Shown here one piece after another: positions 371 to 24,197 of a DNA stretch of 27,263 nt. Both the position numbers and the translations under genes were made by a program. The DNA is from a virus. Below the pieces are notes generated by a model that saw nothing but the letters and a program-made list of their open reading frames with translations, had not been told where the DNA came from and did not search any database. Numbering within the stretch: the first letter of the stretch is position 1; each line of letters begins with the position of its first letter. The stretch spans positions 1-27,263 of the IMG/VR virus record IMGVR_UViG_3300034071_001522. One strand, written 5' to 3'.

Positions 371-624
371 GGTACAATAACCTCATAGGTCTGATCAAAA
401 ATAGCAGGAGCGCAAGGATAAAACTCACCAGCAATTCCCTTAATAATATAATCTCCAACACGTGCTGTCATAATGCCTTCAAGTGTAAGAATTTTAATCT
501 TTGTTGGTTCGAAATTATCATCACGAAGAATAAGTAAACCACCACACCAATCTGATAATACTCCAGCATTATCCTCTGTTAGTTGATGTGCTTCTACATC
601 AACTGGCTTCTTACGAACTTTCAT
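367..624 (-). CDS. Conserved phage protein of unknown function, 85 aa
   Basis: The start chosen is the ATG giving MKVRKKPVDVEAHQL, preceded by a GGAG site. The product ends with the pattern TLEGIMTARVGDYIIKGIAGEFYPCAPAIFDQTYE, which I recognise as the hallmark of a small protein widespread in phages and prophages (basic VEA-type start, then 'GDYIIKG..GEFYPC.P.IF...Y'). Its biochemical role is unknown. Length is normal for the family. The odd feature is that its start codon shares two bases with the -10 box of the promoter at 623-651, so transcripts from that promoter should begin inside the gene; expression would need read-through from the primase side. Confidence 0.85.
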   Translation of the reverse strand: MKVRKKPVDVEAHQLTEDNAGVLSDWCGGLLILRDDNFEPTKIKILTLEGIMTARVGDYIIKGIAGEFYPCAPAIFDQTYEVIVP

Positions 625-651
625 TATATATTCTCCATTGTTAAAAGTCAA
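623..651 (-). promoter_or_regulatory. Sigma70-type early promoter overlapping a start codon
   Basis: On the minus strand TTGACT (646-651) is followed after 17 bases by TATAAT (623-628). Four other promoters in the window share TTGACTT and the 17-base spacer. The -10 box shares its last two bases with the ATG of the 85-aa gene, and that gene's GGAG lies in the spacer. The predicted transcript start is near 616, so this promoter best fits the 59-aa and 52-aa genes. Confidence 0.75.
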
Positions 652-655
652 GTTT

Positions 656-663
656 TATAAATA
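656..663 (+). promoter_or_regulatory. T4-type late promoter of the GIY-YIG gene
   Basis: An exact TATAAATA, the T4 late promoter core recognised by the phage sigma gp55 in T4 itself, lies 60 bases before the GIY-YIG start on the plus strand. The -35 box of the divergent minus-strand early promoter ends five bases away (651). Transcription would start about at 668-670, at the first base of the leader hairpin. Confidence 0.75.
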
Positions 664-667
664 AAGT

Positions 668-697
668 GTAGGTCACGAGACTGCAATCTCTACCTAC
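668..697 (+). promoter_or_regulatory. Two-stem leader hairpin of the GIY-YIG gene
   Basis: Outer stem GTAGGT (668-673) pairs with ACCTAC (692-697). Inside, a CAC/T internal loop separates it from GAGA (677-680) paired with TCTC (687-690) around a six-base loop. The HNH leader at 17844-17874 has the same architecture with different stem sequences. The hairpin should sit at the very 5' end of a late transcript and ends 25 bases before the start codon. Confidence 0.7.
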
Positions 698-722
698 TCT
701 ACCGCTAAAGAGGAGCGACAGC

Positions 723-1244
723 ATGAATATTTATTACGTATACGCCTACCTAAGATCATCAGATAATACTCCATATTACATTGGTAAGGGAAAAGATAAA
801 AGAGCTTTCTCCAAACAACATGGTGTTTCTGTTCCAAAAGACAAATCCAAAATTGTATTCTTAGAGAGCAATTTAACAGAAATTGGCGCCTTAGCATTAG
901 AACGCAGATATATCAGATGGTATGGCAGAAAAGATTTAAACAATGGTGTTCTCCATAATAAAACTGAAGGAGGAGATATGCCGCCTGTCAGATCCGGTCC
1001 TGTGGGTCCATATGGTCCGTATAGCATAGAAGATCGTATTAAAAAATACGCTTCTAGAAGAGGCAAAAATCCTGCTCACTCGCTTCGAATGAAAGGAAGA
1101 CCTGCTTGGAACAAAGGCGTAAAAACTGGCCCTCGTGGTCCTATGTCCGAAGAACATAAAGCAAAAATCTCAGCATCAAAGAAATCTAAACTCTCTTCCA
1201 CTGATTCAACCTTAATTGTGCCGGTAAATCACGATAGGTGTTAG
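723..1244 (+). CDS. GIY-YIG homing endonuclease, Seg-like, with NUMOD3 motif
   Basis: A site-specific DNA endonuclease of the free-standing phage type that spreads its own gene by cutting uninserted relatives. The GIY-YIG core is clear: YYVYAY (4-9), YYIGKG (18-23), catalytic-type Arg27, and E53/E60 in the helix carrying the metal-binding Glu. Around 118-155 a NUMOD3-type DNA-binding motif reads AWNKG then [18 protein letters not shown] lies before the ATG. It is one of only two plus-strand genes. Its last 59 bases overlap, antisense, the 3' end of primase, so its tail after KISASKKSK is simply the complement of primase codons. That suggests the original C-terminus was lost or joined at insertion. 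Its leader matches that of the HNH gene. Confidence 0.92.
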
Positions 1245-2208
1245 TTTTGATAATATGTTCAATAAATTCAGAACTCATACCAGATAAAACCATATCGTTA
1301 ATATCTTTTTGATCTAAATTATCGGGCCAAATACACACAGAGTAACCATTAAGAATAGCCTTTTCCATTTTCTTAACGGTCTCTTTAGAATATTTCTCGT
1401 TGTCGTAAACGATCGTTAATCTACTCTTATCAAAGTCTTTGATAGCACTAACGAGATCACCTCCAGCAGTAGCAATACTGTTAGGAACAAACATACTGTC
1501 AATCGGACCTTCAAGGACAGGAATAATTCTGTTACGATCAACAGTGTCCAAGCCATAAAGTTTAGGTATTGCTTCATTAAGAACAATTGTAATATATTTA
1601 AGTCCTGAAGCCCCCAACGTACGCCCTTGGTAGGCATGAACAGTTTTATTACTGTCAAGAAAAGGGATAAGAAGCCTTGTCTCATCTCGAGCCAGAGACT
1701 CAGCTGAAAACTTGTTGGCAACCAAATTATTAGTAAAATGCTTAAAATTAGGACATGCAAATAACTTGGCGTGATAGGCATTAGGTATCTTTCTTGCAAC
1801 TACGAATTTCTTGATAGGATCAAAAGGCGAAAGCTGAGAAACTTTCTTCAATCCTTTTAATGGCCCGGAGGTCATATATACTGGCTTACGCATTTTCTCG
1901 ACGAACTTCTCGTAATCGTCTTGTTCCGGCGTTTTCTTACCAGCCAACTTTTCTAACTGATACTCATTATATAGGTTGACATCCATCATCTTAATAAAGT
2001 TTGGAATGCCCAATGTCGCATTACAGTTGTGACAATGAAACAACATCTTACCTTCTTTATGATAGATGTATCCTCGAGCTTTATTTTGGTGTGTTTCTGA
2101 ATCCCCGCAAATAGGACAGCGGAAATTGTATAGGTTTGGTCCCTTACGTTTAAATTTCTCTAATCGTGAAGAAACAATACCGATATACTTGTGGGATAAC
2201 CAATCCAT
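1186..2208 (-). CDS. 61: DNA primase, T4 gp61 family
   Basis: Synthesises the RNA primers for lagging-strand replication with the gp41 helicase. At 340 aa it is very close to T4 gp61. The N-terminal zinc ribbon is intact: CPIC (Cys31, Cys34) and CHNC (Cys59, Cys62). A TOPRIM-like catalytic part follows: [11 protein letters not shown] supplies the conserved Glu and LTIVYDNE the acidic strand, with [14 protein letters not shown] downstream. GGAG sits six bases before the ATG. The C-terminus ends ...LNQWKRV, like other phage gp61 proteins, so the convergent GIY-YIG gene has not damaged it despite a 59-base overlap. A weak sigma70-like promoter lies just upstream (2238-2265). Confidence 0.93.
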
Positions 2209-4644: not shown

Positions 4645-4652
4645 TATTTATT
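4645..4652 (-). promoter_or_regulatory. Late-type promoter box before the 241-aa virion gene
   Basis: AATAAATA on the minus strand, fitting the NATAAATA late core described for marine T4-like phages, overlaps the stop of the 77-aa gene. It lies 30 bases before the ATG of the virion gene. The box before the 579-aa gene (6643-6650) has nearly the same downstream sequence. Confidence 0.55.
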
Positions 4653-17615: not shown

Positions 17616-17786
17616 TTACTCCCCTTCTGCCTCGTCATCATCACACTGTCCCAGAAACAGCTTTCTTGCGTAATAGTATCCATCCCAGTTGTCTACGCCA
17701 GCAGCATCTAGACAATCAAGAAAATCAGCAGCCCTTCTTAGACCTTCATATTCAGATTTTGCGATAGTTACAGTTTCTTCACTCAT
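17616..17786 (-). CDS. Hypothetical 56-aa acidic protein before the helicase
   Basis: The ATG chosen gives MSEETVTIAKSEYEGLRRAA and has a perfect AGGAGG site; an upstream in-frame start lacks one. Features: a heptad-like helix with SEYEGLRRAADFLDCL, a segment AAGVDNWDGYYYARKL, and an acidic tail DDDEAEGE. Similar short proteins occur widely in phages without known function. It is the first gene of the helicase operon, about 20 bases after the -10 box. Confidence 0.75.
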   Translation of the reverse strand: MSEETVTIAKSEYEGLRRAADFLDCLDAAGVDNWDGYYYARKLFLGQCDDDEAEGE

Positions 17787-17802: not shown

Positions 17803-17831
17803 ATCATAAACTAAACAAAACATCAAGTCAA
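17803..17831 (-). promoter_or_regulatory. Early promoter of the helicase operon
   Basis: TTGACTT with the -35 hexamer at 17826-17831, a 17-base spacer and TATGAT (17803-17808) on the minus strand. The last base of the -35 hexamer is shared with the first base of the plus-strand late-like box of the HNH gene. Confidence 0.75.
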
Positions 17832-17838
17832 CTAAATA
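17831..17838 (+). promoter_or_regulatory. Late-like promoter box of the HNH gene
   Basis: ACTAAATA matches six of eight bases of TATAAATA and stands five bases before the leader hairpin, where the GIY-YIG gene has an exact late box four bases before its hairpin. Position rather than sequence supports this call. Confidence 0.45.
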
Positions 17839-17843
17839 TTATT

Positions 17844-17874
17844 GCCCATCACGATGCTACCAACATCCATGGGC
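17844..17874 (+). promoter_or_regulatory. Two-stem leader hairpin of the HNH gene
   Basis: Outer stem GCCCAT (17844-17849) pairs with ATGGGC (17869-17874). Inside, a CAC/C internal loop precedes GATG (17853-17856) paired with CATC (17864-17867) around seven bases. It has the same layout as the leader at 668-697 with other stem bases. TCTA follows, as there. Confidence 0.7.
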
Positions 17875-17898
17875 TCTATACCTAATCGGAGGCACAGC

Positions 17899-18501
17899 AT
17901 GGATATTTATCGTAAAATTTGGATCAAACATAATGGTCCTATCCCAAAAGACATCGACGGCAGAACATTCGAAGTCCATCATTTGGACGGCAATCGCAAA
18001 AATAATGACATCTCAAATCTAGTTTGTGTATCTATTCAAGAACACTACGATATACATTTGTCACAAGGAGATTATGCTGCTTGTATTCTCATTGCTAAGA
18101 GAATAAACACTTCACCACAACTGCTATCAGAGTTAGCAACAAAAAACAATCTAGAAAGATCTAAACGACCAGGTTTTGTTAGTGTGTTTGCCAAAAGACC
18201 AGACGGTTCTTCTGTTGCTTCTGACCAGGCATCGAATCCTGAATGGAATAGTCCATTCTCTAAAAGACCAGACGGTTCTTCTGTTGCTTCTGATCTAGTA
18301 TCAAAAGGAAAACATCACTTACTCAAAAGAAATGATGGTTCTTCATTGACAAAAGACAGAGTAACAAACGGAACTAATCCATTTTTAAAACAGTTTAGGA
18401 AAACTGTCGTCTGTCCTCATTGCGGAAAAACAGGTGACAATAGCATCATGAAAAGATGGCACTTCGACAAATGTCGTTACAAAGATTCTTCGTCTTCGTA
18501 G
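17899..18501 (+). CDS. HNH homing endonuclease with repeated DNA-binding motifs and zinc finger
   Basis: The start is the ATG giving MDIYRKIWIKHNGPIP, with CGGAGG before it; an upstream ATG has no site and would cut through the leader hairpin. Length 200 aa. The HNH nuclease core is FEVHHLDGNRKNNDISNLVCVSIQEHYDIH (about 24-53; His27/His28, Asn40, His49/His53). Then come three units of KRPDGSSVASD type (two nearly identical in DNA), probably DNA-contacting, and a C-terminal finger CPHCGK...HFDKC. It lies antisense between the helicase operon promoter and UvsX, overlapping the uvsX 3' end by 25 bases. Confidence 0.9.
   Translation: MDIYRKIWIKHNGPIPKDIDGRTFEVHHLDGNRKNNDISNLVCVSIQEHYDIHLSQGDYAACILIAKRINTSPQLLSELATKNNLERSKRPGFVSVFAKRPDGSSVASDQASNPEWNSPFSKRPDGSSVASDLVSKGKHHLLKRNDGSSLTKDRVTNGTNPFLKQFRKTVVCPHCGKTGDNSIMKRWHFDKCRYKDSSSS
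18193..18293 (+). repeat. 32-bp exact direct repeat inside the HNH gene
   Basis: The same 32 bases (starting AAAAGACCAGACGGTTCTTC) occur at 18193-18224 and 18262-18293, 69 bases or 23 codons apart in frame. They encode the KRPDGSSVASD unit; a third copy around 18324-18360 has diverged. The identity at DNA level suggests a recent duplication of the target-recognition unit. Confidence 0.9.
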
Positions 18502-22385: not shown

Positions 22386-22413
22386 AAAAAGCTGAGGGAG
22401 TCAATCCCTCAGC
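22386..22413 (-). terminator. Intrinsic terminator containing the FtsH stop codon
   Basis: On the minus strand GCTGAGGGA (22405-22413) pairs with TCCCTCAGC (22391-22399) around TTGAC, then five T and an AT-rich run. The TGA stop of ftsH lies in the loop, so the last codons form the upstream arm. Confidence 0.88.
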
Positions 22414-24197
22414 GGTACTTTTCCATCTAACAGATCAACAATTTCTTGACCTGATAGAGTCTCGTATTCAAGCAATCCCTTTGCTAGCGTATCAAGCTGC
22501 TTTCTATGCTTCTTAAGAATAGACATAGCAGTATAATATGCATCATCAAGAATACTTCTTACTTCATCGTCAATTTGTTTCTGAGTTTGTTCAGCAACCT
22601 TTGGACCATGAAATACATCTGAGTTTGGATCAGTGTATGCTACTTTACCAAGATGCTTAGAGAAACCAAACTGTGTGACCATAGCACGAGCAATTCTTGA
22701 TGCTTGCTGAATATCAGCAGCTGCACCAGAAGTTACATTGTCATCGCCGAAAACTAATTCTTCAGCTGCACGTCCACCCATTGCCATTGCTAAATGAGCA
22801 ATCATTTCTTTACGAGACTGCGAGATTTGATCACGTTCTGGCAGAGACTGAACCATGCCCAAAGCACGACCACGTGGAATGATTGTTGCCTTATGAATCG
22901 GAACAGAACCTTCCATCTTAAGAGATACAAGAGCATGTCCACCTTCATGATAGGCAGTCATCTTCTTTTCTTCTTCAGACATAACAAGAGTGCGACGTTC
23001 TGCTCCCATAAGAATCTTATCACGAGCATCTTCAAATTCTAGAGCAGTAACAATTCGCTTTGAACGTCGTGCTGCTAGTAGTGCTGCTTCATTGATAAGA
23101 TTTGCTAGATCAGCGCCAGAGAAACCTGGAGTGCCACGAGCAATTACTTTAAGATCGACATCCGCCCCCAAAGGAACATTACGAGAGTGGACTTTAAGAA
23201 TTTTCTCACGTCCTGTAATGTCCGGGTTGGATACAGTAATCTGTCGATCAAAACGGCCAGGACGAAGAAGGGCAGGATCAAGCACATCCACACGGTTTGT
23301 GGCTGCAACAATAATGATACCTTCGTTGTCATTGAATCCATCCATTTCAACAAGTAGAGAGTTAAGCGTTTGTTCACGTTCATCATTACCACCATTCATT
23401 CCTGAATTACGATTACGACCAACAGCGTCAATTTCGTCGATAAAGATAATACATGGAGCATTTTTCTTTGCCTGTTCAAACATATCACGCACACGAGATG
23501 CGCCGACGCCAACAAACATTTCAACGAAATCAGAACCAGATAGGTGAAAGAATGGAACGCCTGCCTCGCCTGCTACTGCCTTAGCAAGTAGAGTCTTACC
23601 AGTTCCTGGAGGTCCAACAAGTAGAACGCCCTTTGGAATCTTACCACCAAGGCGTTCGAACTTAGTAGGATCTTCAAGAAACTCTACAACTTCCTGTAGA
23701 TCTTCCTTTGCTTCATCAACGCCAGCAACATCTTCAAATGTTATTTTGATGTCTTCTGGATCGAGAAGTTTTGCTTTAGACTTACCCATTCCCATTGCGC
23801 CGCCCATTCCACGACCAGCACCACGACGAGAAATCCAAAGCCAAAGAGCAAAGAATAGAAGAATTGGAGCAAGATTGATAAACAAATTAGTAAAGAATCC
23901 ACCTTCGTTTGGTGGTTCTGCATTAATTTGAATTTTCTTATTATCTATTTTCTGTAAGAATGTACTTACAGAAGGAACGTAAGTATTAAACTGTCTGTTA
24001 TCAATAAAATGTCCAGTAACTTCGTTGCCCGAAATAGTCAAATCGTGCACTCGATTCTCGTCAAGTTGAGCAACGAGCTCGCTGAAACTAATTTGTCTTG
24101 AGTGAGTTCTTGTAGATGCTGTATCATTCCAGATAGCAAACATCGTCAACGATGCTAAGATCACGAGAACCCAAGGAGTTAGCTTTCTCCAATCCAT
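22401..24197 (-). CDS. ftsH: FtsH-type membrane AAA+ zinc protease
   Basis: An ATP-driven protease of the inner membrane that degrades membrane and regulatory proteins. All parts are present in 598 aa: TM1 (about 7-24), a periplasmic domain, TM2 (about 102-123), Walker A GPPGTGKT (195-202), Walker B IIFIDE (250-255), the [13 protein letters not shown] pore loop and second region of homology, zinc motif HEGGH (417-421) and third ligand D495 in AAADIQ. The C-terminus stops just past the last helix, shorter than typical bacterial copies. HEGGH with [18 protein letters not shown] resembles alphaproteobacterial FtsH, suggesting acquisition from a host. It has its own early promoter and terminator. 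Confidence 0.96.

Follow-up and report, generated by a model that had tools for sequence, protein, structure and literature searches.

Two homing endonuclease genes, one of the GIY-YIG and one of the HNH type, begin with the same compact element in the analysed window, which is the whole 27,263-nucleotide stretch of a virus record. Sequence comparison strongly supports a start cassette of about 80 bp, portable and sharply bounded, that holds two covarying hairpins and is linked to several endonuclease families. The pairing in the hairpins appears to fit the antisense strand best, and we see about an even chance that the element is a portable late-expression cassette whose structured antisense RNA restrains translation of the endonuclease.

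The source of the window is a T4-like phage. Genes for DNA polymerase, a DnaB-type helicase, primase and UvsX are found on the minus strand, and the two endonuclease genes, both matching homing endonuclease families (GIY-YIG or HNH), are set among these replication genes on the plus strand. The GIY-YIG gene is opposite to its flanking genes, overlaps the primase gene (1186-2208, minus strand) with its 3' end and has no Pfam match at E 0.01. The HNH gene is located between uvsX and a small ORF followed by the helicase gene, all on the minus strand. This small ORF (17616-17786, minus strand) matches phage RecBCD nuclease inhibitor families (phrog_6234, 1.3e-15). A 598-aa AAA protease is encoded at 22401-24197 (minus strand) with best match phrog_30773, whose function is not assigned; it presumably resembles FtsH, which we take to be unusual in a phage. 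Megablast of window positions 600-1500 against cultured phages returned no match.

The coordinates and pairing of the two leaders (668-697 and 17844-17874) were exact in the initial annotation. The GIY-YIG leader reads GTAGGT-CAC-GAGA-CTGCAA-TCTC-T-ACCTAC, followed by TCTA, the Shine-Dalgarno (SD) site GAGGAG, ACAGC and ATGAATATTTAT; the HNH leader reads GCCCAT-CAC-GATG-CTACCAA-CATC-C-ATGGGC, followed by TCTA, the SD site GGAGG, ACAGC and ATGGATATTTAT. Scans of both strands of the window found CAC hairpins with a 6-bp outer stem at these two leaders only, and the same holds for CAC hairpins with an inner stem starting GA. Chance similarity was rejected, as the resemblance is far beyond chance in the window scan and in shuffles. 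A covariance model of the family also matched the window at the two leaders only (E 2.6e-19 and 1.1e-14), with scores that are high by construction because both are in its training set.

That annotation described one hairpin with a CAC versus one-pyrimidine internal loop. A second hairpin, around the SD site, had been overlooked, and the loop is really C-R-C, in which R mostly pairs with the opposite base; its variants among 207 leaders are CGC/C (167), CAC/C (22), CAC/T (15), CAC/G (2) and CGC/T (1). The two hairpins are called P1 and P2 on the gene strand, and P1' and P2' on the antisense strand.

Table 1. Features of the two start cassettes in the window; promoter boxes and antisense RNAs are predictions.
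Feature	Position	Strand	Remark
Sense late-promoter box TATAAATA, GIY-YIG gene	656..663	+	P1 starts 4 nt further on; predicted +1 near G668
P1' hairpin of predicted antisense RNA (hairpin of the initial annotation)	668..697	-	Outer stem 6 bp, G-Y-G/R internal loop, inner stem 4-5 bp
P2' hairpin of predicted antisense RNA	699..721	-	8 bp, 714-721 with 699-706
SD site GAGGAG, GIY-YIG gene	710..715	+
Conserved CAGC	719..722	+	Complement of 722 is predicted antisense +1 (G), from spacing only
GIY-YIG homing endonuclease gene, 173 aa	723..1244	+	phrog_314 homing endonuclease, 6.6e-7
Antisense late-promoter box ATAAATA (TATTTAT on plus strand)	728..734	-	Motif; within first codons of gene
Sense late-promoter box CTAAATA, HNH gene	17832..17838	+	5 nt ahead of P1
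P1' hairpin of second predicted antisense RNA	17844..17874	-
P2' hairpin of second predicted antisense RNA	17876..17897	-	17890-17897 with 17876-17883
SD site GGAGG, HNH gene	17888..17892	+
HNH homing endonuclease gene, 200 aa	17899..18501	+	HNH_3, 2.3e-14
Antisense late-promoter box ATAAATA (TATTTAT on plus strand), HNH copy	17904..17910	-	Motif

The leader family and its genes

The two leaders belong to a large and apparently undescribed RNA family. About 200 distinct leaders, not all of them independent events since some are related, were present among the matches listed from IMG/VR phage contigs, with as many as 13 on a single contig. The genes that follow are nearly always of the GIY-YIG or HNH homing endonuclease type and comprise several unrelated kinds, in support of the earlier proposal of a portable 5' element that was joined to unrelated mobile nuclease genes and kept compensating stem changes. 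From a protein search of IMG/VR, the best 80 of at least 152 GIY-YIG relatives and the best 80 of at least 256 HNH relatives were kept. Among these, 77 of 80 GIY-YIG loci have the leader upstream, as do 65 of the 79 HNH loci whose flank is long enough; counting each distinct upstream sequence once, the figures are 50 of 53 and 33 of 43. A short GIY-YIG query gave no match.

Pattern scans blind to the gene were also performed. The pattern made of ATAAATA, TCGCG and ACTCTAA occurs in at least 110 distinct places, nearly all ahead of endonuclease-like ORFs as judged by eye. The hairpin core alone was found in at least 107 distinct places with enough flank. Among the matches listed, the sense box is present in 106 of these 107 places, a TATTTA-like box in 106, CAGC in 104, and an ORF of at least 80 codons starting in the leader in 99; 96 of the 107 have an ORF with a GIY-YIG or HNH motif, and seven more are nuclease-like by eye. 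The other four are a 297-aa ORF in L608 and short ORFs in L288, L383 and L389. The L608 ORF (MNIYTIRSSIEQYL...) is without a GIY-YIG or HNH motif. An SD-based pattern scan gave at least 119 loci, four of which carry the leader by script (L177, L218, L252 and L254).

A covariance model built from 64 leaders was run on 18 IMG/VR contigs and 10 cultured phage records. Matches were found in 17 of the 18 contigs, a fraction that is not a prevalence because the contigs were picked from loci already in hand, and in two of the ten cultured records, with 1 to 13 per matching record. The fetched surroundings contain 98 model matches, including one partial match and some near-duplicates, and a script found the start codon for 96. 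By motif, 87 of these 96 ORFs are of GIY-YIG or HNH type; the other nine comprise five rows (four proteins) that are NUMOD3-repeat-like, three that are nuclease-like by eye and one truncated HNH. When 85 proteins were scanned, 53 matched phrog_314 (homing endonuclease) and 23 phrog_12324 (intron-like DNA endonuclease). Pfam names 27 NUMOD3, 20 HNH_3 and few GIY-YIG domains in the model-found proteins, and the GIY-YIG labels therefore rest on motifs and PHROGs.

Some loci depart from an intact endonuclease gene. The NUMOD3-repeat-like proteins with the cassette (L524:1164-1589, L525:1507-1962, L551:1639-2136 and L554:1573-2037) look to be without a nuclease domain and have a common N-terminus, M-x-I-Y-x-P-I-x3-LG-x2-P. 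In L288, L296, L383 and L491 the leader is followed by a seemingly deleted or truncated endonuclease gene, so that the cassette persists beyond the gene; in L491, closely related to the window HNH site, a 27-codon remnant is left. Eight loci, L086-L093, carry the window HNH gene with an apparent large internal deletion (284-nt match, residues 1-200).

The search of other phages with a covariance model, which the initial annotation had proposed, yielded further covarying examples, found outside T4 and four other classic T4-like phages. With the antisense model (R2) and the stricter filters of the search tool, the element is present in four of 21 cultured phage records: Variovorax V45v66, Rhizobium RHph_I1_18, Pseudoalteromonas XG4 and, weakly and twice, Rhizobium LG08. 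The same filters gave no R2 match in the other 17, including T4, Aeh1, Aeromonas 25, KVP40 and S-PM2. Both LG08 matches overlap the starts of genes annotated as HNH endonuclease, and these copies have the ATG inside the P2' loop. TATTTAT lies 12 nt from CAGC in RHph_I1_18, and no clear antisense ATAAATA was found in the Variovorax, Pseudoalteromonas and LG08 copies. R2 had no match in 18 of 25 contigs, including all 10 taken from the SD-based pattern scan; three of the 25 were also searched with model R1.

With Rfam 15, searched to E=1, nothing matched at a leader in the window, L034, L055, L080, L101 and L138, and among the papers listed by literature searches none showed a description of such a leader. 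Elsewhere in L034 (2441-2503, minus strand) there is a match to the ROSE_3 thermoregulator below its curated threshold (34.9 of 43 bits, E=0.0013). A cellular origin was rejected: a pattern limited to one common variant gave 49 matches in 84,980 bacterial and archaeal genomes, of which a single one has the complete cassette as judged by eye. This one, L702, is a 3.5-kb contig filed under an Erysipelotrichaceae genome bin and is probably a misplaced phage contig.

Strand of the conserved pairing

Across the 64 leaders, 89.0% of the cells are paired versus 64.3% after shuffling, and double changes occur at all 16 pairs versus 12.6 after shuffling. Copies within a genome are slightly more alike (identity 0.630 vs 0.570 for P1 and 0.666 vs 0.592 for P2), and the outer stem is GTAGTT in 11 of the 13 copies of G003. 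Copy-specific diversification within genomes was thus not seen. Since P1 stem sequences are often common within a genome, there is no sign of selection for copy-specific pairing.

The element had been taken for a leader RNA of the gene strand, which the pairing data do not support; they point to the antisense strand. The odd pairs in the hairpins are mostly A·C on the gene strand, and these become G·U on the opposite strand. For P1, with the geometry set by Watson-Crick pairs only in 207 leaders (121 distinct P1 cores), the gene strand has 47 A·C versus 2 G·U in the outer stem, the R-Y pair and the first three inner pairs, the R-Y pair alone contributing 22 and 1. The fourth and last inner pair runs the other way, with 20 G·U and 14 A·C, and is often not formed. 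P2 has 100 A·C versus 4 G·U on the gene strand in 167/168 distinct tails; in the version used for shuffling, the A·C:G·U ratio is 95:11 observed and 12786:5774 pooled over 200 shuffles. The model-found set has the same direction, with 32 versus 2 for P1 without the last inner pair, 59 versus 10 for P2, and 3 versus 11 for the last inner pair.

Because of this A·C excess the reverse strand was aligned, with nine odd leaders omitted and 82 rows kept. With both strands read from this one alignment (A4), 97.4% of the cells are paired antisense versus 87.2% sense, and shuffles reach 79.3%. The antisense reading has 172 G·U versus 14 A·C; 81 of the G·U come from one invariant pair, without which the counts are 91:14, and then 55 rows have more G·U, four more A·C and 23 equal numbers. 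The conserved TCTA and CAGC, hard to explain on the gene strand, form the foot of P2' when read antisense, where 81 of 82 rows have a G·U. Leaving out both the invariant and the last inner pair, the G·U:A·C ratio is 27:1 in P1 and 59:5 in P2', in comparison with means of 101:79 and 77:31 in column-matched shuffles, of which none of 300 reached either observed ratio. Slid-register controls gave up to 4.7:1 in P1 and 183:21 (8.7:1) in one P2' slide; composition alone favours G·U in some slid registers, and the ratio by itself is therefore not the whole proof. A bias tied to the contig strand was rejected, as the effect is alike for endonucleases on either contig strand (78:7 and 94:7), although contig orientation is arbitrary.

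Folding was compared on both strands. Unguided RNAalifold of the antisense alignment predicts exactly P2' and P1', with 8 and 11 pairs, one nucleotide apart, at -20.7 kcal/mol and with 16 of the 19 pairs doubly changed. On the sense alignment A1 only P1 is predicted (10 pairs). These two consensus folds use different row sets; the comparison of strands on one alignment is that of 97.4% versus 87.2%. In single folds of 198 leaders, two hairpins are formed by 187 sense and 196 antisense sequences. The antisense fold is more stable in 185 of the 198 (mean -16.8 vs -12.8 kcal/mol), and -1.9 of the mean difference of -4.0 kcal/mol, about half, comes from composition. Both window copies fold into P2' and P1' on the antisense strand, at -19.0 and -23.8 kcal/mol (z -1.7 and -3.1). 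On the sense strand only the GIY-YIG leader forms the motif, and the HNH leader with its first codons does not. Each of the five copies in cultured phages scored better with the antisense than with the sense model (61.7/56.0, 50.9/49.0, 45.9/39.2, 33.1/30.4 and 31.2/30.2 bits), the two models differing in training rows and the Variovorax copy being in the antisense training set.

Cassette borders and the predicted antisense RNA

The cassette extends from the late-promoter box ATAAATA to the reverse box TATTTAT just past the ATG. The sense box is outside both hairpins, with a spacer to P1 of 5 nt in 137 of 207 leaders, 3 nt in 37 and 4 nt in 21. The reverse box is found near CAGC in 192 of 206 leaders (TATTTA 173, TACTTA 11, TATATA 7, TATCTA 1), and the gap from CAGC is 5 nt in 136 and 6 nt in 38 of these 192. 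The ATG ends 0, 1 or 2 nt ahead of the box in 11, 12 and 167 of the 192, with two unplaced, and the box is thus kept as DNA in all three reading frames relative to the ATG. ATATTTAT behaves like a reversed late-promoter box, not like coding sequence; conservation of an M-x-I-Y peptide as its sole reason was rejected because the box is kept in three frames. Also rejected was a closing helix between the two boxes, for which 180 leaders show no convincing covariation: CTAAATA with TATTTAT (12) and ATAAATA with TACTTAT (10) are uncompensated, and compensated variants are two single leaders, ATAAGTA/TACTTAT and GTAAATA/TATTTAC. No position beyond the boxes exceeds 0.52 bit of conservation in 79 leaders; these rows were selected for having boxes, so only their flanks are informative. 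ATAAATA alone is no commoner in the window than by chance (9 found vs 8.95 expected). Single minus-strand copies precede ORFs of the same strand by 20-75 nt at 4645, 6643, 10678 and 15499; one further copy is 4 nt before the helicase ATG and one is inside an ORF. We infer that both boxes of the cassette act as promoters.

In the mechanism we propose, the late promoter would read into the gene and a second late promoter would read back out of its first codons. The outward promoter would produce a short RNA of about 60 nt, consisting of a 5'-G, the P2' hairpin, an A and the P1' hairpin, and complementary to the 5' untranslated region. By its position such an RNA is complementary to the translation start region, with the complement of the SD region within P2' and part of it in the P2' loop, as in the GIY-YIG copy. 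Pairing with the endonuclease mRNA would keep translation low even in the late phase, as a self-limiting brake like the antisense control of transposases. The brake would move with the nuclease because the cassette is inside the homing unit. The predicted antisense strand has a stable fold both in the alignment and in single folds. A scan of window 560-860 that excludes interrupted stems found no intrinsic terminator past P1', so the predicted RNA may not end there; many contig leaders have a U-rich tail after P1', which the Variovorax copy lacks. More tentatively, and in our view doubtfully, the cassette may be a successful unit of bidirectional late promoter and antisense RNA, fused to many unrelated nuclease families, that forms a common antisense network restraining all resident endonucleases together; copies in one genome would then have loops and flanks in common.

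The outward promoter might instead serve a flanking gene that was cut from its operon by the insertion, with the P2'-P1' leader stabilising or insulating the late mRNA of this neighbour. Insertions can displace promoters, according to the review PMC2988022. Crude ORF calls in 89 cases place a 5' neighbour pointing away from the endonuclease in 55, and in 43 the genes on both sides run opposite to it. No endonuclease separates primase from the following gene in the related contig L405 (primase 61% identical), where the two overlap by ATGA. The cassette is often adjoined by sigma-70-like promoters that read towards the neighbour; scores of at least 10 occur in 14 of 54 cases with an outward neighbour and 4 of 29 otherwise (1.3% in shuffles). 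The window has two such promoters on the minus strand, each reading towards its neighbouring gene: TTGACT-17-TATAAT at 623-651, adjoining the GIY-YIG cassette and overlapping the ATG of that gene, and TTGACT-17-TATGAT at 17803-17831, adjoining the HNH cassette. However, both neighbours are parallel to the endonuclease in 21 of the 89 cases, and there TATTTAT is kept in each of the 20 distinct leaders scored, with a pairing bias of the same direction. Whichever of the four orientations the neighbours have, the bias and TATTTAT are present (numbers being small for some), and this speaks against a role for the neighbour only. Moreover, it is the structure that is conserved, not a promoter alone, and at the start of the endonuclease, and we regard this explanation as rather unlikely.

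It is also unlikely that P1 and a weaker P2 act in an endonuclease mRNA starting at the foot of P1, where they would stabilise the 5' end, set the timing or bind a protein. The nearly universal sense box, ending 3-5 nt before P1 in 195 of 207 leaders, conforms to such a role, as do the outer stem of P1, which pairs at 97.6% even on the sense strand, the two hairpins in the sense folds of 187 of the 198 leaders and the SD site, mostly in the P2 loop. The exceptions nevertheless go the wrong way, with the A·C excess at the R-Y pair (22 vs 1) and in P2 (100 vs 4) described above; P2 is not predicted on the sense alignment, and the window HNH leader does not form the motif. A small RNA riding with the endonucleases, which acts in trans on other mRNAs (for example through a CCUU loop) or is a decoy for a phage or host protein, would fit the similar P2' regions of copies within a genome (identity 0.666) and their number of up to 13 per contig. 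We consider it very unlikely, because its position exactly over the ribosome-binding site of the endonuclease would be a coincidence and 103 of the 107 core-only places, among the matches listed, have an endonuclease-like ORF. Strand asymmetry alone cannot tell RNA from single-stranded DNA, and G·T is also tolerated in DNA hairpins; a bottom-strand DNA hairpin in recombination or replication is highly improbable all the same, as it explains neither why two promoter-like boxes stand at nearly fixed distances nor why the element is tied to a start codon.

Known systems and biological meaning

The antisense brake proposed here has a counterpart in IS10 RNA-OUT, where a promoter near the start of the gene of a mobile element reads out across the translation start region, as the candidate outward promoter in the endonuclease cassette would. 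Control of the RNA-OUT type is, as far as we know, transposon-specific.

In T4-like phages, T4-type endonucleases (I-TevI/II/III, segB, mobE), whether free-standing or intron-borne, have late promoters and RNA hairpins where their genes begin (PMC2988022); the SD site is paired in read-through transcripts, late transcripts lack the sequence needed for the hairpin, and expression is confined to the late phase. In contrast to these systems, the SD site of the cassette is mostly in the P2 loop and not in a read-through-only stem, the promoter is outside both hairpins so that late transcripts are not deprived of them, and one architecture, with pairing that fits the antisense strand, is common to several families. 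The segD-like endonuclease gene seg43(25) of Aeromonas phage 25 has a very stable predicted hairpin just upstream of the ribosome-binding site (PMC2988022), in a position like that of the cassette hairpin. CfrI of cyanophage S-PM2, an antisense RNA of about 225 nt that links an endonuclease gene with psbA (PMC2984593), resembles the predicted RNA in being antisense at a homing endonuclease gene of a T4-like phage. Under strict filters, the cassette model had no match in T4, Aeh1, Aeromonas phage 25 or S-PM2.

The modes of control described for phage homing endonucleases vary between genes. The present family adds an RNA that Rfam 15 did not recognise among the leaders searched; since it overlaps a gene's 5' end on the opposite strand, annotation would readily pass over it. 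The test of G·U versus A·C by strand is applicable to any hairpin overlapping a gene start. A common antisense network, if true, would amount to RNA-based immunity and dosage control shared among selfish genes; to our knowledge no such system is known for homing endonucleases. If unrelated endonucleases do carry one portable RNA cassette, selfish phage genes would share control parts, and experiments could address how they keep harm to the host phage low.
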